64,000 bases of DNA from Maritalea porphyrae (GTDB taxonomy: Bacteria; Pseudomonadota; Alphaproteobacteria; Rhizobiales; Devosiaceae): positions 808,039-872,038 of the forward strand of contig NZ_BSNI01000002.1 of the NCBI RefSeq assembly GCF_030159895.1. The letters run 5' to 3'. How positions within the stretch are numbered: the first letter of the stretch is position 1; each line of letters begins with the position of its first letter. The position numbers and the translations under genes are program-made. This document shows, piece after piece, positions 5,720 to 47,932 of this stretch. The notes under the pieces were generated by a model. The model saw nothing but the letters and a program-made list of their open reading frames with translations. It was not told the origin of the DNA and searched no databases.

Positions 5720-7108
5720 CTAGCTGCCGTTTTGTTCGACAAGCTGACCGGTCTTAAGGCCGATTTCTAAGCTGTCGAGATAGGCATTGGGCTGTTTTGC
5801 ATCGAATGGAATGCCGTCAATTATGTCGGAGCCAGGTGTTGGGGCTTTATAGCCGTCGCTATCCCAAGGAACCTCTGCCTCTGCCACATAGCCTTCTTCC
5901 AAAAGCATTTTGGCAGCTTCCAAATAGATGTCTGGGCGATAGACACTTTTGGCAACATCGTCATACCAAGTGTCGTCTTTTTGCTCCGCAATCTGCCCCC
6001 AGCGACGCATTTGGGTTAGGTACCAAACAGCATCTGAGTAGAACGGGTAAGTCGCGTTGTAGCGATAGAACACATTGAAATCAGGCACAGAGCGTTTGTC
6101 GCCCTTTTCATATTCAAATGTGCCCGTCATCGAGTTGGCAATAACTTCAGCATCAGCGCCCACATATTCAGAGCGAGACAAAATCTCCACCGCTTCTGCA
6201 CGGTTTGCGTTGTCATTCTCATCTAGCCATTTTGCGGCGCGGATAAGAGCTTTGGTAAGCGCAAGCGTTGTGTTTGGATTTTCTTCTGTGAACTCTTTGG
6301 TGAGACCAAAGACCTTCTCAGGGTTATTTTTCCAAATCTCAAAGTCAGTGATCACCGGCACGCCAATGCCTTTGAACACCGCCGCTTGGTTCCAAGGTTC
6401 ACCAACGCAATAGCCGTGGATAGTACCGGCTTCCAACGTGGCTGGCATTTGTGGGGGCGGCGTTACTGACAGCAAAGCATCAGCATCGATTTGACCAGAT
6501 ACATCGGAAGGAGAATAGAACCCAGGGTGGATGCCACCTGCCGCTAGCCAGTAACGCAATTCGTAATTGTGTGTGGACACAGGGAAAACCATGCCCATAT
6601 TGAAATTCTTACCCTCTGCTTCGAAGGCTTCAACAACTGGCTTCAGTGAAGCCGCGCTGATCGGATGAACCGGTTTGCCATCTGCGTCATATTCAAGGTG
6701 CGGCTTCATCATTTCCCAAACTTCGTTTGAAACGGTGATGCCGTTGCCATTCAAGTCCATCGAAAATGGCGTCACAATATGTGCTTTAGTGCCGTACCCA
6801 ATGGTTGCAGCCAAAGGTTGACCTGCCAACATGTGTGCGCCATCAAGTTCGCCAGTGATGGTGCGATCAAGTAGGACTTTCCAGTTCGCTTGCGGCTCGA
6901 GAGTTACGAACAGGCCCTCATCTTCAAAAAAGCCTTTCTCATAGGCAATGGCCAACGGTGCCATGTCCGTGAGCTTGATAAAGCCCAAGCGCAGCTCGTC
7001 CTTTTCTACGTCCAGCATGTCAGCAAAAGCGTCGTTACTTAGTGCGAAGATTGCGGCAGCACTGGTGAGCATTGCAGCGGCAAGTTGAGGGACAATAGAT
7101 TTCTTCAT
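5720..7108 (-). CDS. nrtA: Nitrate ABC transporter substrate-binding protein
   Basis: Periplasmic nitrate/nitrite-binding component (NrtA/CmpA family), 462 residues from the chosen ATG. Its signal peptide is positively charged, then hydrophobic, with a probable cleavage after DAFA (about residue 30). No lipobox cysteine is seen, so the protein is soluble rather than a lipoprotein. The mature start [24 protein letters not shown] is typical of the family. The reading frame is open further upstream to 7267. A TTG at 7126 with AGGA six bases before it is a competitive alternative start and would add six residues. First gene of the nitrate operon, divergent from a LysR regulator. Confidence 0.93.
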
Positions 7109-30978: not shown

Positions 30979-31065
30979 TGGTGCCCTGGAGAAGACTCGA
31001 ACTTCCACTTCCTTGCGAAAACTAGCACCTGAAGCTAGCGCGTCTACCAATTCCGCCACCAGGGC
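30979..31065 (-). tRNA. tRNA-Leu, anticodon CAG
   Basis: 87 bases including the encoded CCA. Reading the minus strand: acceptor GCCCTGG pairs with CCAGGGC, the D arm includes GGAATTGGTAGACGC, and the anticodon stem CTAGC/GCTAG encloses the loop TTCAGGT with anticodon CAG. A long variable arm (class II) follows and then a GTTCGAGT T arm. It decodes CUG leucine codons. It lies alone, antisense to its neighbours, just after the TRAP genes. Confidence 0.95.
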
Positions 31066-39765: not shown

Positions 39766-40866
39766 ATGAACGACGTAATCTCACTTGATACGCTGCGCGA
39801 ACAAATCACCGCCGACATTGAAAACGCAAGTGATGAGAAGGCGCTGGACGCTGTGCGTGTCGCAGCGCTTGGCAAAAAGGGTTCTGTTTCCGAGCAGCTC
39901 AAATCTTTGGGCAAAATGTCCCCAGAGGAGCGCAAAAGTGCAGGACCGGCGATCAACGGTTTGAAAAACGATATGGCGGCGCTCATTGAGGCGAAGTCTG
40001 CTGAGCTAAAAAAAGCGGCGCTGGAAGCGCGCTTGGCGTCAGAAAAAGTTGATGTGACACTGCCATTGCAGCCTGGTCCAATGCAGCGTGGTTCCATCCA
40101 CCCTGTGTCGCAAACACTGGACGAGATTACAGCTATCTTTTCTGACATGGGTTTTGCGATTGCTGAAGGTCCGGACATTGAAAGCGATTACTATAATTTC
40201 ACCGCGCTGAACTTCCCAGAAGGTCACCCGGCCCGTGAAATGCATGACACCTTCTTCATGAAAGCCAAAGAAGGCGACGACAACGGCAGCAAAATGGTGC
40301 TGCGCACGCACACTTCACCTGTGCAAATCCGTACAATGGAAAACCAAGAGCCACCAATCCGAGTGGTGATCCCCGGTCGCACTTATCGTTGCGACAGTGA
40401 CCAGACCCACACACCAATGTTTCACCAGCTTGAAGGTTTGGTGATTGACAAATCATCGCACATTGGCCAGTTGCGCTGGGTACTAGAAGAGTTCCTCAAA
40501 GCCTATTTCGAAGTGGACAATGTAAAAACCCGCTTCCGTCCATCCTTCTTCCCGTTCACCGAGCCATCAATGGAAGTCGACGTGCAATGCGATCGTTCCG
40601 GCAAGGAAGTGAAAATTGGCGAAGGCAATGATTGGCTGGAGATTTTGGGTTGCGGCATGGTCCATCCAAATGTGATCCGCAATTGCGGACTTGATCCAGA
40701 TATCTACCAAGGGTTTGCATGGGGCATGGGAATCGATCGTATCGCGATGCTGAAATATGGCATGCCTGACCTGCGCGACTTTTTCGATGCCGACAAACGT
40801 TGGATGGAGCATTATGGCTTCCGCCCTCTTGATCTACCAACATTGTTTGGGGGCCTTTCATCGTGA
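39766..40866 (+). CDS. pheS: Phenylalanine--tRNA ligase alpha subunit
   Basis: Class II synthetase catalytic subunit that charges tRNA-Phe as an alpha2-beta2 enzyme with PheT. 366 residues. An N-terminal coiled-coil arm (to about residue 95) precedes the catalytic core [19 protein letters not shown], motif 2 region [17 protein letters not shown] and motif 3 region [17 protein letters not shown]. The stop TGA overlaps the GTG of the following exonuclease-ASCH gene, so the next gene is translationally coupled. pheT does not follow directly, which is unusual. Confidence 0.97.
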
Positions 40867-41879
40867 CATCAACGTCGAACGATATGGACAATGCGGTCTA
40901 TATCGTCACTGACATTGAAGCAGATGGCCTTAGCCCGTTGCGCAACTCAATGCTGAGTTTTGCATCTGTGGCGATGAACCGTCGCGGCGATTTTTTGGGT
41001 GAGTTTGAAGTCGTGTTGGAACCGCGTGCGGATCGCGAGCAGGACCCGCACACAATGGAATGGTGGAAGACCGAACCAGAGGCCTACAAAGCCGCCACGA
41101 CAAATGCAGTTGCGCCAGAAAAGGCGATGGCAGACTTTGTTGCGTGGGTGAAGGGGTTTGAAGGACGTCGGGTATTTGCTGCGGCACCGCTCATTTTTGA
41201 CGGCCCGTTTGTGGACCACTATCTCGATACCTATTTGGGCTTGCGGGCTTTCGCAACGCCGAACCATTCAGAAAATGTATTTGCTGGCGGCTGCGCAGAC
41301 ATTTACGCCATGGCGGGTGTAATCGCCAACTCGCCGCATGAAAAATGGACGACCCGTGGCGTTCCGGATAGCTGGATCGGCAACCAACCGCACACACACT
41401 ACGCTATTGATGATGCCCGTGGTTTTGCCCATTTGTTGAAGCGAATTTTCATCGTTGGTGGTTTGGCCGCAAAATATCGCAATTTGGAGATTGCTGAGTT
41501 TGGCGATGGGCAAGAGTTGCGCGATGAATTGGTTGGGTTGATTGTTGAAGGCAAAAAAACGGCAACTTGCGGATCGCTCTCGATCTACGAGGAAGAGGGC
41601 GAGCCGTTGCCCAAAGTGGGAGAACAATTCATTGTTCCGGATTGGAATGGCAACCCGCGCTGCATCATCCAAGCCACATCTGTGGAAGTGAATAGCTTTG
41701 ACGAAGTGGATGAAGACTTTGCGCGCGCCGAAGGCGAGGGCGACCTTTCATTTGAGTTTTGGCGCCAAGCCCACATTGATTTTTTCACCCGCAATGGCGG
41801 GTATTCACCTGATATGAAACTGGTTTGCGAACGCTTTGAATTAGTTGAAGTGTTCGAACAAGAAACGACAAAAGAGTAG
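40863..41879 (+). CDS. DEDDh 3'-5' exonuclease fused to an ASCH domain, inserted between pheS and pheT
   Basis: 338-residue two-domain protein. The N-terminal part (about 10-195) is a DnaQ-fold exonuclease: D17 and E19 in VTDIEADG, candidate motif II Asp113 or Asp118 in [11 protein letters not shown], and H179-x-A-x-x-D184 in HYAIDDA. It most resembles Rv2179c-type exoribonucleases. The C-terminal part (about 205-335) is a YhfF-like ASCH domain, with GKKTAT (230-235), [18 protein letters not shown] and a [12 protein letters not shown] end. ASCH domains have an RNA-binding PUA-like fold and some are nucleases or amidohydrolases. The start overlaps pheS (GTGA), ATG 40884 being an alternative, and pheT starts 5 bases later, so it is expressed with PheRS. 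A role in tRNA or RNA quality control is speculation. Confidence 0.85.
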
Positions 41880-41883
41880 ACCG

Positions 41884-44310
41884 ATGAAATTCACAATTGA
41901 TTGGCTCAAAGATCATCTCGACACCAAAGCGTCAAACGATGAGATCATTGAAACCCTCACCATGATCGGCTTGGAAGTCGAAGAGGTTGAAGACCAAGCA
42001 AAAGTTTTGAACGACTTCACGGTCTGCGAAGTGATAAGTGCTGAAAAGCACCCAAATGCCGACAAATTGCGCGTCTGCATGGTTAATACAGGCTCAGGCG
42101 ATCCGGTGAAGGTTGTTTGTGGCGCGCCGAACGCGCGCACAGGCATGAAGGGCGTATTTGCTGCAGTGGGCACATATGTGCCAGGCGTCGATTTCACCCT
42201 GACCAAAGGCAATATTCGGGGTGAAGAAAGTAACGGGATGTTGTGCTCTGAACGCGAGCTGATGCTGTCGGACGAACATGATGGCATTATTGATCTGCCA
42301 GAGGACGCGCCGGTTGGCACCAAATTTGTTGACTATGCAGGCATTGACGATGTGGTCGTTGATATCGCAATTACACCAAACCGAGGTGATGCAACAGGCA
42401 TTTATGGCATTGCGCGCGACTTGGCTGCTGCAGGCATCGGCGAATTGAAAGACGGCATAGTGGCACCTGTTCCCGCTACGTTGAATGGGGAAGGCGACAT
42501 CTCCGTTGACTTCCGCTTTGGCGAGGGCGAGCCGCAGGCTTGTAAAATGTTTGCAGGACGTTTGTTCAAAGGCGTGAAAAACGGTCCCTCACCAGAGTGG
42601 TTGCAAAAGCGCTTGATCGCGATTGGCTTGCGCCCAATTAATGCGCTTGCCGATATTACCAACTATATTTCATATGATCGCGGTCGCCCGCTGCATGCTT
42701 ATGATGCTGACAAAATCAATGGTCAGTTCCATGCGCGAAACGCCAAAAAGGGTGAGAAGATTCTCGCGCTTGATGGCAAGACCTACGAACTTGACGAGAC
42801 CATGTGTATCTTGGCCGACGACAATGGCCCGCTCTGTATTGGCGGCATTATGGGCGGCGAGGAAAGCGGATGTACTGAGGACACCACAAATATCTTCATG
42901 GAATGCGCTTGGTGGGAACCATTGCTAATTGCGCAAACCGGTCGTAAAACGGGCATCGTTTCGGATGCGCGCTATCGCTTGGAACGTCATGCAGACCCTG
43001 AGTTTGTATTGCCGGGCATCGAACTTGCAACCAAAATGATCTTGGAAATTTGTGGCGGCGAAGTGCACGAAGTAACCGTAGCCGGTGAAGTAAAATCACC
43101 TGAAAAAGTTATCGAGTTTCCACTAGCTGAAATCACCCGTTTGACAGGTCTGAAAGTGCCATTTGCAGAAGCAAAAGCAATTCTAACACGGCTTGGTTTC
43201 TGGGTTGCTGGTTCAGGCGATGTGGTCAAAGTTAATGTGCCTTCATATCGTCCAGACATTGAAGGCAAAGCCGATTTGGTGGAAGAAGTGATGCGAATCG
43301 TTGGCGTTGATAAAGTGCCGGTTGATCCTTTGCCTCGTCTTTCAGGCGTTGCGCCGAAAATGCTCACAACCATTCAAAACCGTCGTCGCATTGCACGTCG
43401 CACATTGGCTGCTCGCGGTTTCCACGAGGCCGTCACCTGGTCGTTCATTTCAGAAAAAGAAGCCACTTTGTTTGGCGGTGGCGCTGACGAATTGAAATTG
43501 GAAAACCCAATTGTTTCTGACCTCACAGATATGCGTCCGTCATTGTTGCCCGGTCTTTTGGCAGCCGTTGGCCGCAATGCAAATCGCGGATTTGCGGATG
43601 TGGCGCTTTTTGAGGTCGGTCAGGTCTTTAAAAATGACAGCATTGACGGTCAACTCAACTACGCAACTGGCGTACGTGCAGGCACGGCTAAGTTTGCCCA
43701 AGTTGGGCGCGACTGGCAGGGCAAAGCCAACAAAGTTGATGTGTTTGATGCAAAAGCCGATGCGCTTGGTGCTCTTGATGCGTTGGGCATGGATGTGAAC
43801 AACATTCAAGTTGTGGCCGAGCCTGCCGATTGGGCCCACCCAGGACGCGCTGGTCGCTTGCAACTGGGGCCAAAAATGATCTTGGGTTGGTTTGGCGAAT
43901 TGCACCCAGCGCTGATTTCCGAGCTTGATTTAACCGGACCGGTTGTTGCATTTGAATTGAACTTGGATGCAATCCCGTCACCACGTAAAAAGGCGAGCAA
44001 AGCAAAAGGCGCGTTGGACATCTCTGATTTGCAACCCGTTCGTCGCGACTTCGCCTTCCTTGCGGATCGCAATGTTGAAGCAGGTAAGCTCGTCAAAGCA
44101 GCAAATTCGGCAGACAAAAAACTAATTCAGTCCACCTCGATCTTTGACGTTTTTGAAGGCGAACATGTGGGCGAAGGTAAAAAATCTGTCGCCATTGAAG
44201 TCACATTGCAGCCACGTCAAAAAACGCTGACGGACGAAGAAATCGAAGCGGTGAGCAATAAAATCATCGCAGCGGTTGAAAAAGCAACCGGCGCGATGTT
44301 GCGCGGGTAA
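41884..44310 (+). CDS. pheT: Phenylalanine--tRNA ligase beta subunit
   Basis: 808-residue beta subunit that carries the editing and tRNA-binding parts of PheRS. MKFTIDWLKDHLDTKASNDEI opens the protein; a tRNA-binding OB domain (about 43-150, VCEVISAEKHPNADKLRVC), B3/B4 editing domain, B5 domain, a catalytic-like core without activity, and a C-terminal FDX-ACB domain (PVRRDFAFLADRNVEAGKLVKAA) can be followed. Length is normal. ATG 41884 was chosen; the open frame upstream lies in the exonuclease-ASCH gene. Confidence 0.97.
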   Translation: MKFTIDWLKDHLDTKASNDEIIETLTMIGLEVEEVEDQAKVLNDFTVCEVISAEKHPNADKLRVCMVNTGSGDPVKVVCGAPNARTGMKGVFAAVGTYVPGVDFTLTKGNIRGEESNGMLCSERELMLSDEHDGIIDLPEDAPVGTKFVDYAGIDDVVVDIAITPNRGDATGIYGIARDLAAAGIGELKDGIVAPVPATLNGEGDISVDFRFGEGEPQACKMFAGRLFKGVKNGPSPEWLQKRLIAIGLRPINALADITNYISYDRGRPLHAYDADKINGQFHARNAKKGEKILALDGKTYELDETMCILADDNGPLCIGGIMGGEESGCTEDTTNIFMECAWWEPLLIAQTGRKTGIVSDARYRLERHADPEFVLPGIELATKMILEICGGEVHEVTVAGEVKSPEKVIEFPLAEITRLTGLKVPFAEAKAILTRLGFWVAGSGDVVKVNVPSYRPDIEGKADLVEEVMRIVGVDKVPVDPLPRLSGVAPKMLTTIQNRRRIARRTLAARGFHEAVTWSFISEKEATLFGGGADELKLENPIVSDLTDMRPSLLPGLLAAVGRNANRGFADVALFEVGQVFKNDSIDGQLNYATGVRAGTAKFAQVGRDWQGKANKVDVFDAKADALGALDALGMDVNNIQVVAEPADWAHPGRAGRLQLGPKMILGWFGELHPALISELDLTGPVVAFELNLDAIPSPRKKASKAKGALDISDLQPVRRDFAFLADRNVEAGKLVKAANSADKKLIQSTSIFDVFEGEHVGEGKKSVAIEVTLQPRQKTLTDEEIEAVSNKIIAAVEKATGAMLRG

Positions 44311-44335
44311 CCAAGTTAGTAACCGTCAGTTGCAA

Positions 44336-45529
44336 ATGAAAAGAATCGTCTCGCCGCACCCCATCTTCCTCAAACCAGAAGAAGGTTTAAGGCGACGACC
44401 GTATATGTCGGAGTTGAGTCGGCCAGACTTCTTTTGGGAGGGCTTTGACGAATTTGGACTTTTCTACGATGTTTTCCGCGACATCAATGATGCGCGCATT
44501 TGGTTTGTTGGACCAAGTCCGGCCAATTTGAAAGGCGAGTTAGAAGCAGCAATTGTTGTCGGGGACCAATCTGGCGTTGTAGCTAAACTGCAGTTTCAAA
44601 AAAGCCGGTCAGCGTGTGTAGCATATGTTGATCTTCCCGAAGAAGATGTAGGCCTGACTATGAGGATTGGGACCCAAACCCTGCGTGCCACCATAGGCAG
44701 AAACCTATCTAGCGACTTCGCTGGGATGCGCGTGTTGTGCTGCATCAATAACGACAACGATTTGAATTGGATAGCGGATTGGGCCAAGTTCTACCAAAAA
44801 GAGCATGCAGCAAATGCGGTAGTAGTCTTTGATAACAATTCGAGCAGATACACCAAGAGTGAGCTATCCGCGGCCCTTGAAGGTGTTGAGGGTTTGGATC
44901 AATCCATTGTTGTTGATTGGCCATTTCACTTCGGCACGATGGACAAGATTGCACAAGATAATGGGCAAAATGGATATGTACGCTTTGCCCAGCCGGTTAT
45001 GTATATGTCGCTGTATCTTCGTATGGCGTCTAAGGCGCGTTCAATTTTAAATGTCGATATTGACGAACTTGTACTGTCCAACAAAGGTCGGTCGATATTT
45101 GAGGCGACCGAAAAGCGGTGGTTCGGGTGTACAAAGTTTCACAGATATCTCGTTGAAAATGTCTTGGCTCCCGGCAGCCCTGGTAACAATTCAGTCAGTT
45201 TTTCAGATTTTGTGTACAGAAGCCGGAAGCAACTGGGCCCGCAAGATAAATTTAAAAAGTGGGCAATGTCACCAGGGCGGGTGAAACCAAGGCAGCTTGT
45301 CGCACAACCCAATACTCATTGGGTTGACGGTGTTTGGAACCCATATCCGGTTTCACGGGAGTTCAAGTGTTATCATTTTGCAGGCATCAATACCGGCTGG
45401 CGCGCAAACACGCAAAAAGGTGAGTTGCGTGAATGGCAACATGAAAGGCATCTCGCACAAAATTTTGATCCGGAACTTCATCTAAAGGATGAAATCCTAG
45501 CCGAAAAACTAGACGAGATTTTTGGGTAA
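44336..45529 (+). CDS. GT92-like glycosyltransferase (first of a related pair)
   Basis: 397-residue protein that I match only by pattern to the glycosyltransferase family 92/DUF23-like group. Supporting motifs are NNDNDLNWIADWAKFYQKEHAA with VVFDNNSS (nucleotide-sugar binding start) and the DxD-like VDIDELV (about residue 240). HWVDGVWNPYPVSR and FAGINTGW follow near the C-terminus. No signal peptide or membrane helix is visible, so it would act in the cytoplasm. The ATG at 44336 lacks a clear ribosome site. It shares motifs and order with the next gene, and both precede an O-antigen-ligase-like gene. The sugar and acceptor are unknown. Confidence 0.65.
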   Translation: MKRIVSPHPIFLKPEEGLRRRPYMSELSRPDFFWEGFDEFGLFYDVFRDINDARIWFVGPSPANLKGELEAAIVVGDQSGVVAKLQFQKSRSACVAYVDLPEEDVGLTMRIGTQTLRATIGRNLSSDFAGMRVLCCINNDNDLNWIADWAKFYQKEHAANAVVVFDNNSSRYTKSELSAALEGVEGLDQSIVVDWPFHFGTMDKIAQDNGQNGYVRFAQPVMYMSLYLRMASKARSILNVDIDELVLSNKGRSIFEATEKRWFGCTKFHRYLVENVLAPGSPGNNSVSFSDFVYRSRKQLGPQDKFKKWAMSPGRVKPRQLVAQPNTHWVDGVWNPYPVSREFKCYHFAGINTGWRANTQKGELREWQHERHLAQNFDPELHLKDEILAEKLDEIFG

Positions 45530-45533
45530 GCAA

Positions 45534-46697
45534 ATGGACAGAGCATCAACGGGGAGTCTTCGGAACTCGCACTCTAGCAAAAAAATGGACATCAAACTGT
45601 CTACCGTGCGTTTAAATTCGAATAGCGATGTCAAACGGCTTCCTCGTTCGCCTAATCGGATCCGTCCCGAAAAGTTCATAGGTAATTTTGACGCCCAAAC
45701 GCTTTATTTTGACTGTTTCTATAGCAATGACGGTGGCGAAGTGCTTTGCATTGGACCGGCACCGACGAATTTGAAGAAATACTACAAGCGAGCAACGTAC
45801 CGTGCTCTACCGTCGGGTCATGACGTAAAAGCCAAACACTTCTTTTCCCTGTCAGTTATGTCGACGCGCCTACAAAATGTGCCAATAGGGACGACCCACA
45901 TTGAGATGTGTTTTGCTAACGAAAACTTTCAAATTCAGGTGCAACCGTCACTTTCCAATGAATTTTCGAATGAGAATATCTTATTCACTCTTTCAAAGAA
46001 CAATGATCTTGCGTGGATAAAGTATTGGGCAGATTATCACGTACGACATCACGGTGTGAGTGCTATTGTCTTTTTTGACAATGGATCAAATGCCTACAAT
46101 GTTGATGCCATCCACTCCTGTCTGGCTGATATCCCTGGGTTGGAAAAAACATGTGTGATTTCAGTCCCTTATCCATATGGTTACAAAGACGATATTTTGA
46201 AAGTCAACCCATATTGGCCACAGTTTTTGCAGGTCTCGTGTATGAGTATTGTATTGCGGCGAATTGGTGTACATGCAAACTCAATTGTGAATTTGGACAT
46301 CGATGAACTTGCCGTTTCTGATGGCCAAATATGTAGCTTGGTAAAATCAACAGATATAGGCATTCTTTCCATGAAAGGGGTATGGATCGAGCCAATCGCA
46401 GAGGAAGGTTCCGACCAGGTTGATCATCGCTCATTTTCAACAGTTAAAAAAAATCCAGAAGAATCGTATGTCAGTGCCGGCAAATGGGTAATTGATCCGT
46501 CACGAAAATGGCTAGCAAAACACAATGTCTTCCCGTATATGCATTGGATTGAAGGGCGTCCGCTTTTAGGTCGCCGATATATTGGGAACGCACACTTTTT
46601 GCATTTTAAAGCGATCAACACTGGCTGGAAAGTCAATCGACATAAACCCCAATTGTTTGATGACTTGATCCACGAGAAGCAGCCGATTAAATGGTAA
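45534..46697 (+). CDS. GT92-like glycosyltransferase (second of a related pair)
   Basis: 387 residues, a divergent relative of the preceding protein. Parallel motifs are SKNNDLAWIKYWADYHVRHHG with IVFFDNGSN, the DxD-like LDIDELAVSDG, HWIEGRPLLGRRYIG and FKAINTGWKVN. The stop overlaps the start of the membrane protein gene by 7 bases. The start 45534 follows the previous stop by 4 bases, so the three genes form one unit. The base composition looks slightly more AT-rich than the neighbouring synthetase and fumarase genes (by eye). Confidence 0.65.
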   Translation: MDRASTGSLRNSHSSKKMDIKLSTVRLNSNSDVKRLPRSPNRIRPEKFIGNFDAQTLYFDCFYSNDGGEVLCIGPAPTNLKKYYKRATYRALPSGHDVKAKHFFSLSVMSTRLQNVPIGTTHIEMCFANENFQIQVQPSLSNEFSNENILFTLSKNNDLAWIKYWADYHVRHHGVSAIVFFDNGSNAYNVDAIHSCLADIPGLEKTCVISVPYPYGYKDDILKVNPYWPQFLQVSCMSIVLRRIGVHANSIVNLDIDELAVSDGQICSLVKSTDIGILSMKGVWIEPIAEEGSDQVDHRSFSTVKKNPEESYVSAGKWVIDPSRKWLAKHNVFPYMHWIEGRPLLGRRYIGNAHFLHFKAINTGWKVNRHKPQLFDDLIHEKQPIKW

Positions 46698-47932
46698 ATA
46701 GAACCCGATCTCTGCAGTCGTTCTGGCCACAATTTGGCTTGGCACTACTGTTGGCGACAACCTTTCTTATACCGCTTCTGTTCGGATCGATTTCAATTGT
46801 TTTAGCGCTTCTGCTGTCGCTTGCTGCAGCAATCAGCTTCTACTTCAGCGGTGCACGTGCGCGGTTTACCTGGCAGCCAACCCTTGCGGCGCTGCTTTGC
46901 GGGTTTATGCTTCTAGGTGTTGCCTTTGCAATCAATGCAGACACGCCAAATGATATGTCGTTTCTAGTCAGCTTTTTGGGCCTAGCTTTACCCATTCTGC
47001 TCTACCAATACCTGAACAATTTGCCTAAACCGCCTTCCTTCTTCAGGATTGCTGTTTATTGTGCACTGGGTTGTTTACTGGGATTGCTGTTTGCGCACGC
47101 GCAGCGATATGGGTTGGGAATTGGCCGTACGGTCGCAGTTTCAGCAGGTCCCAACGCGGTCGCGCGAGTAGCCGCCGTGCTTGGTTTCCTTGCCTTGGTC
47201 GGTGTTCGACCTGACCTTCGTTCTTTGTCCAATTTGGTTTTTTGCGCGGCGTGGGTTGCGTCCTTACTCATCATAATACTAGCGGGATCTCGTGGCACAC
47301 TGCTTGCGGTGCCGATAATGTCGTTGGTGGCACTGGCTGTCGCCCTGCCGCAGCTATGGCGGCAATCAAAGCGGGCGACCGTCACAGTCCTGGGTGTCAT
47401 TGTCGGTGTGCTTTTAATCATCGTGTATGTTGACCCAAACGGGTTTATTACCCGATTTGTGCAAACCATGGCAGAACTCGCCGCTGGCCGTCTGCCCGGG
47501 CACTCGTCTGAATTGCGGTACGAAATGTTAGTTGGCGCATGGAATGGCTTTTGGCAATCGCCGCTCGTAGGACATGGTTGGGCAGGGCATTGGGAGGCTT
47601 TGGTGTCAAATCATCCTACGCCAGAGATATTTGCGCCAGTGAAGCAATATTTCTCCTATCACAATGACGTTGCCGATTTTGCGGTTGCTGGCGGAATTCT
47701 AGGGCTCATGGCCTACGCCATCATCATTGCTGCGCCAATTATAAATCTGGCGATCGATCCGAAATTGCGCGCCAACCCCCGCGCTGTTTATGGTTTGGTT
47801 TTGTTGCCGGCTGCATACATTGTATTCGGCCTAACCGATTTTGTGTTTGGATTTGACCTTCTTACTACACTATATGGGTTCTCACTGGCCTTCCTATTGG
47901 CTGCAGCCAAAGCGTCGCAGGTTCCGAGTTAA
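46691..47932 (+). CDS. O-antigen ligase/polymerase-like (Wzy/WaaL-type) membrane protein
   Basis: 413-residue polytopic membrane protein with about ten helices and a periplasmic loop between about 265 and 320. The loop region GHSSELRYEMLVGAWNGFWQSPLVGHGW and YHNDVADFAVAGGILGL matches the Wzy_C/O-antigen ligase domain, whose conserved Arg and His residues are present. Either polymerisation or ligation of a glycan is possible and the sequence does not separate the two. With the two upstream glycosyltransferases it makes a small surface-polysaccharide module. Confidence 0.8.
   Translation: MVNRTRSLQSFWPQFGLALLLATTFLIPLLFGSISIVLALLLSLAAAISFYFSGARARFTWQPTLAALLCGFMLLGVAFAINADTPNDMSFLVSFLGLALPILLYQYLNNLPKPPSFFRIAVYCALGCLLGLLFAHAQRYGLGIGRTVAVSAGPNAVARVAAVLGFLALVGVRPDLRSLSNLVFCAAWVASLLIIILAGSRGTLLAVPIMSLVALAVALPQLWRQSKRATVTVLGVIVGVLLIIVYVDPNGFITRFVQTMAELAAGRLPGHSSELRYEMLVGAWNGFWQSPLVGHGWAGHWEALVSNHPTPEIFAPVKQYFSYHNDVADFAVAGGILGLMAYAIIIAAPIINLAIDPKLRANPRAVYGLVLLPAAYIVFGLTDFVFGFDLLTTLYGFSLAFLLAAAKASQVPS

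Follow-up and report, generated by a model that had tools for sequence, protein, structure and literature searches.

Between pheS and pheT of Maritalea porphyrae lies a gene in which a DEDDh 3'-5' exonuclease-like domain (here called Exo) is fused to an ASCH domain, and the same two domains were fused a second time, independently and in the opposite order, in another genus of the Devosiaceae. The pheS-pheT gap in which they meet is a cargo slot that tolerates many unrelated genes, so that its location beside an essential synthetase operon says little about the role of the product. We consider it about an even chance that the gene encodes an accessory two-domain nuclease, in which ASCH would select a base or an RNA end and which would be housed in pheST for its expression. 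The gene was analysed within a 64,000-nucleotide stretch of the M. porphyrae genome (assembly GCF_030159895.1, contig NZ_BSNI01000002.1), referred to below as the window, and the coordinates of its features are given in Table 1.

Table 1. Features of the pheS-pheT region, in window coordinates.
Feature	Position	Strand	Evidence
pheS, upstream slot border	39766..40866	+	TIGR00468, 333 bits against a cut-off of 237
Exo-ASCH fusion gene, 338 aa, GTG start, TAG stop	40863..41879	+	ORF; full-length match in 6/6 genus genomes
DEDDh 3'-5' exonuclease-like domain, Rv2179c-like, about residues 10-200	40890..41462	+	PF16473 (below cut-off), PADLOC models, 7t2s
ExoI motif D17-x-E19	40911..40919	+	58/58
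Likely ExoII aspartate D113 (FDG)	41199..41201	+	58/58
ExoIII motif H179-x-A-x-x-D184	41397..41414	+	H179, A181, D184 each 58/58
ASCH domain, 1t62/3s9x type, about residues 213-330	41499..41852	+	PF04266, 1t62, 3s9x
ASCH motif K232-T-A-T235	41556..41567	+	Aligned with YqfB K21, T24
ASCH E290-G-E292	41730..41738	+	55/55 each; E290 aligned with YqfB E74
pheT, downstream slot border	41884..44310	+	TIGR00472, 754 bits against a cut-off of 403

The placement between pheS and pheT and the GTGA overlap, both described in the initial annotation, were verified by the open reading frame and by TIGRFam models of the two flanking genes. The GTG start codon of the fusion (40863-40865) overlaps the pheS stop codon TGA (40864-40866) in a four-base stretch; at the other end, the TAG finishes at 41879 and the ATG of pheT begins at 41884, which leaves four bases between them. 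Both the overlap and the short spacer are preserved across six genomes of the genus (genus code g1), with G115 deviating at the stop. The Exo-ASCH stop of G115 (L003, about 6014-6038) is lost, giving a 345-aa protein whose frame crosses the ATG of pheT. Both halves are under purifying selection within the genus, with dN/dS values of 0.03-0.17 for Exo and 0.05-0.14 for ASCH in pairs with computable dS, and their rates are mostly higher than those of pheS and pheT, silent sites being near saturation in most of the genus pairs from which these comparisons come. The AlphaFold structure predicted for the fusion, built from three close sequences, had a mean pLDDT of 32.8. Rfam at gathering level gave no match in the slot or the pheS leader and a single one in the window, a tRNA at 30982-31065. 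On the 3' side of pheT (window 44318-47932) there are two ORFs without Pfam match, alike by eye, followed by an O-antigen-ligase-like gene.

The Exo half carries what we take to be the DxE, D and HxAxxD motifs of DEDDh enzymes. The residues D17, E19, D113, H179 and D184 are invariant in all 58 distinct relatives, a set that leaves out fragments and matches with internal stops. D118 is likewise invariant and is an alternative candidate for the ExoII aspartate beside D113; an hhalign alignment to RNase T, itself not significant, sets FD on FD. The Rv2179c-like family PF16473 scored 23.9 bits on the whole protein and 26.1 bits on the Exo half alone, both under its cut-off of 27, and was matched by 13 of 13 aligned Exo relatives (best E 2.3e-7). 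The PADLOC models "Effector/Exonuclease" and DEDDh also matched the Exo half, with E 4e-10 and E 6e-5, respectively. The initial call of a DEDDh exonuclease, made from D17, E19, H179 and D184, is upheld by the invariance of these four residues, with PF16473 itself remaining below cut-off. Comparison of Exo with E. coli DnaQ, RNase T, ExoX and Orn by hhalign gave probabilities of at most 1.4%, and TIGR01298 (RNase T) did not match the window protein at E <= 1.

The ASCH half was recognized by PF04266 over residues 219-329 (E 2e-23, 83.5 bits), far above the cut-off of 21.2 bits, and the HMM search thus agrees with the domain assignment of the initial annotation. ASCH is a PUA-like base-binding fold. 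The closest solved chains, 1t62 (E 2e-28) and 3s9x (E 2.3e-22), cover most of this half. K232, C236, E290, E292, H304 and R310 are invariant among 55 sequences, of which 46 carry Thr at position 235, eight Ser and one Ala.

Within the Devosiaceae, a search with the fusion protein found a match in 101 of 136 genomes (93 of 119 among those at least 90% complete). By tallies counted by hand from the match rows, 94 genomes have Exo, 72 have ASCH, 65 have both and 35 match neither domain. The expectation that some relatives would hold only one of the two domains at this locus was borne out, since Exo occurs without ASCH in the slot in 30 of the 94 Exo genomes, and ASCH is found alone in seven (G045, G079, G098, G118, G121, G124 and G129). 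The two domains sit at one place in 64 of the 65 genomes that have both, 63 of these on one contig and one (G065) over two contig ends; in the remaining genome (G006) ASCH lies on a different contig and shares just 34% identity. Exo-ASCH in one frame is found in six genomes, which are all six of the window's genus. The opposite order, ASCH-Exo in one frame, occurs in 46 genomes, all of genus code g5, perhaps Devosia; the sequences of 11 were examined directly, and the other 35 are assigned from the equal lengths of the open frames that hold the two halves. Separate genes are present in 12 genomes, 11 with both in one gap at a distance of 3 to 903 bases, plus G065. Among the matches listed, 92 of 95 Exo or fusion genes are located no more than 3 kb downstream of pheS and on the same strand; the exceptions are G065, an additional copy in G010, and G071, an ASCH-Exo genome in which pheS was not found. 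The 2.8-kb gap of G002 (L059, 1637-4103) holds two tandem Exo genes, an ASCH gene and further ORFs. In G062 and G082 (L080, L081) the Exo gene of the slot is split into fragments that lie in different frames, which looks like decay.

Wide gaps between pheS and pheT are not peculiar to genomes with these two domains. In a hand-chosen sample of the family, 43 of 59 gaps measured at least 200 bases, 35 of them with Exo or ASCH and eight with neither. Outside the family, 80 genomes of the order were sampled, and after removal of seven without pheT in the fetched stretch, 73 genomes from 64 genera were counted. The two genes lie within 200 bases of each other in 43 of these and are at least 200 bases apart in 30, a measure that uses pheS-pheT gap lengths alone and no control gene pair. 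Of these 30 wide gaps, three contain ASCH, one contains Exo and 26 contain neither; an ORF of at least 70 aa was called in 24 of the 26, and 12 of the 26 gave a Pfam match to something else, one of them marginal. Tenants scanned in and outside the family had a Pfam match in 16 of 29 cases, and include DUF559 nucleases, LysE, YetF, a histidine phosphatase, a protoglobin receptor, a cation exporter, DUF922, DUF1330, an AraC regulator beside a methyltransferase, DUF2442-BrnA and DUF4160. Some tenants resemble toxin-antitoxin genes, namely a DUF2442-BrnA antitoxin fusion (L090, 2228-2848) and a DUF2442 gene beside a gene that clusters with a DUF4160 gene (L069, 5072-5552). Related tenants also occur at L163, L148, L125 and L190 (families f35, f45, f10 and f22), and the Pfam DUF559 nuclease was identified in the two that were scanned. 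Exo itself is inside the gap in families f1, f15 and f27, and ASCH in f1, f19, f23, f29 and f35; ASCH is found just 3' of pheT in ten loci of f44.

These observations bear directly on the suggestion, made in the initial annotation, that co-location with pheST points to a role in tRNA metabolism. Under this explanation the fusion would act on tRNA, trimming or editing its 3' ends or its modified bases, and would lie in pheST because of a working link with the phenylalanyl-tRNA synthetase. The repeated occurrence of Exo and ASCH at pheST in several families fits such a link. RNase T belongs to the DEDDh superfamily, and nothing in the genome reaches the RNase T cut-off, the one TIGR01298 match (C2:405169, 24.7 bits against 246.2) lying elsewhere than the fusion, which leaves room for a trimming enzyme. 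RNA binding by PUA-like domains, described in the available text of PMC5615036 and PMC7641849, is also in keeping with it. Against this, the gap hosts unrelated genes in other families, which makes co-location with pheST weak evidence for a tRNA role and weakens the original step; moreover, 35 of the 136 family genomes do without either domain. Order-level relatives also occur without pheS or pheT within 1.5 kb (Exo at L049 and L054, ASCH at L046 and L047). No Pfam family recurred in more than two of 36 proteins neighbouring Exo at 20 loci outside the slot, a crude test in which the longest ORFs were taken, the wrong strand beat Exo in several loci and some of the 39 picks were exchanged or removed by hand; GidB and an EngA-type GTPase were each seen once. 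Searches of the genome with the TmcA_N and HIGH_NTase1 profiles, in which positive controls worked, gave no match, and this also speaks against tRNA modification as the context, TmcA and TmcAL being what we take to be the makers of ac4C. We therefore regard a dedicated tRNA function as improbable.

Of four plasmid contexts inspected, one is without annotation and three have unlike neighbours; on a Paenarthrobacter plasmid the Exo relative overlaps a NUDIX gene by eight bases. Viral contigs scanned with the Exo and ASCH profiles yielded no confirmed relative. Exo-half relatives with 31-35% identity are present in two large phages, Atu_ph07 of Agrobacterium (490 kb) and Phosso of Sinorhizobium (469 kb; L202). 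In the annotated phage set, ASCH relatives are found in records other than those of the two Exo phages, and in none of the 15 phage and 195 plasmid records matched was 80% of the fusion covered in one place.

Indirect support for a partnership of the two domains comes from their fusion in both orders. ASCH-Exo in 46 genomes and Exo-ASCH in six imply two fusion events, which arose independently; in trees of Exo, of ASCH and of PheS, all of them quickly built and containing some long rows, the two fused forms occupy separate clades. Mapped on the PheS tree, which covers 75 genomes of the family, the arrangement requires two changes, the minimum for three states and one per fusion order, with 12 changes of state for Exo and 19 for ASCH. 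The Exo tree roughly tracks the genera; the ASCH tree is patchier, with an f29 sequence nested inside f1. Co-occurrence of the domains gave a raw Fisher p of 3e-8, a value that ignores kinship; corrected for descent it was not significant, with 3 and 6 well-supported independent pairs and a median p of 1. The class and phylum samples (385 and 398 genomes, E <= 1e-8) contained both halves in no genome except the window's own, and the order sample contained them in two genomes of other families (G149 and G429), where they lie far apart. Since the halves are unpaired outside the family, all evidence of partnership comes from one slot, in which neighbourhood comes easily, and the occurrence of each domain alone indicates that each is dispensable to the other. 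The joint nucleic-acid role that the initial annotation proposed for the two domains thus gains from the opposite-order fusions and loses from the co-occurrence corrected for descent.

The same evidence can be read as an accident of the slot, in which unrelated tenants of a permissive gap were joined by read-through and each half works alone. Slots with Exo alone or ASCH alone (30 and 7 of 136 genomes), the null result after correction for descent and the unpaired halves in the order, class and phylum samples would all follow from it, and G115, whose lost stop lets the fusion frame run over the start of pheT, also counts on its side. On the other hand, fusions of opposite order arose twice and were kept in six of six g1 genomes and in 46 g5 genomes, only 16-40 bases separate the matched parts of the fusions, and selection acts on both halves, as measured in genus g1. 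An accidental origin with no joint function hence seems doubtful to us, to much the same degree as the tRNA function.

The initial annotation had further pointed to modified cytidines, a lead for which the ac4C amidohydrolase YqfB of E. coli provides the reference. A weak hhalign match (33%) places Lys21, Thr24 and Glu74 of YqfB on K232, T235 and E290, with K232 present in 55 of 55 sequences. The position of Arg26 corresponds to G237, which is Gly in 42 and Arg in none of the 55, and that of His70 to F286; replacement of Arg26 abolishes YqfB activity according to the available text of PMC6972931. Because the Arg26 position is Gly, hydrolysis of the YqfB type by the ASCH of the fusion is unlikely, and this lead is weakened, the aligned triad notwithstanding, also by the failure to find TmcA or TmcAL. 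A nucleoside clean-up system, in which Exo would free nucleotides for a YqfB-like small-molecule amidohydrolase, can draw on the aligned Lys-Thr-Glu triad and on the NUDIX overlap of the Paenarthrobacter plasmid, but with the Arg and His positions changed, Ser or Ala at position 235 in nine sequences and a weak alignment to begin with, it is the least credible of the explanations considered.

We thus favour an accessory two-domain nuclease, with a probability of about 0.5, a figure at which the opposite-order fusions on one side are balanced by the null result after correction for descent and the unpaired halves outside the family on the other. In this nuclease the DEDDh domain, judging by its invariant active-site residues, would remove nucleotides from 3' ends, and ASCH would determine which substrate is taken, by holding either a base, which may be modified, or the end of an RNA. 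Through the four-base stop/start overlap, the fusion would probably be made whenever pheST is made. That the domains occupy one slot in roughly half of the family genomes and were fused in both orders lends indirect support to their working together; no partnership with the synthetase need be assumed. As for the target, which may be bulk RNA, stress-damaged RNA or phage nucleic acid, we lean away from tRNA-Phe and towards RNA or nucleic acid of foreign origin. A more speculative extension, which we put forward tentatively and hold to be considerably less likely than the nuclease itself, is that the gap is a standing slot of the Hyphomicrobiales in which the Devosiaceae twice built a base-reading exonuclease that breaks down RNA, or nucleic acid of foreign origin, when it carries a particular base state, and that is tied to the pheST operon so that its level follows translation capacity.

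The domains are known and the architecture is new; the openly accessible literature yielded no account of the fusion, the slot or a link between ASCH and the synthetase, nor any report of this pattern of reuse. That one pair of domains was joined in both orders is a good genomic hint at cooperation between an ASCH and a DEDDh nuclease that are both orphans, and the double fusion offers a concrete way into the ASCH type of 1t62 and 3s9x. The slot carries a warning for the Hyphomicrobiales as well, namely that adjoining an essential translation gene is no evidence of a role in translation.

Among known systems, 1t62 and 3s9x match the ASCH half strongly in sequence, but are chains of 166 and 159 residues without exonuclease, titled "conserved hypothetical protein" and "ASCH domain"; to our knowledge, this ASCH type has been solved without being given a role. 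The Rv2179c-like 3'-5' exoribonucleases of PF16473 share the DEDDh residues in the same order and are matched by all the aligned Exo relatives, whereas the window protein scores under the curated cut-off, is fused to ASCH and is embedded in pheST. YqfB aligns at its Lys-Thr-Glu triad and differs in that its essential Arg and its His are not kept. Among solved structures, 7t2s matches the sequence of Exo best (E 0.01 with Exo alone, 1e-5 with a profile); the available text of PMC12345164 and PMC11981726 describes it as E. coli Cap18, a predicted DEDDh exonuclease associated with CBASS. The window genome differs from that setting in having no match to SMODS (PF18144), the sole CD-NTase model searched, and in the neighbours of the fusion, which are pheS and pheT. 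Defence models applied to 32 slot tenants gave one match, mad2, which by that library makes the slot unlike a defence island; a defence use of Exo is nevertheless thinkable from the Cap18 link and the PADLOC effector-exonuclease model. Finally, ZmASCH of Zymomonas mobilis, for which Tyr47, Lys53 and Ser128 would be the residues to compare, has the ASCH superfamily in common with the fusion and is an ASCH protein that, according to the available text of PMC5615036, cleaves RNA.
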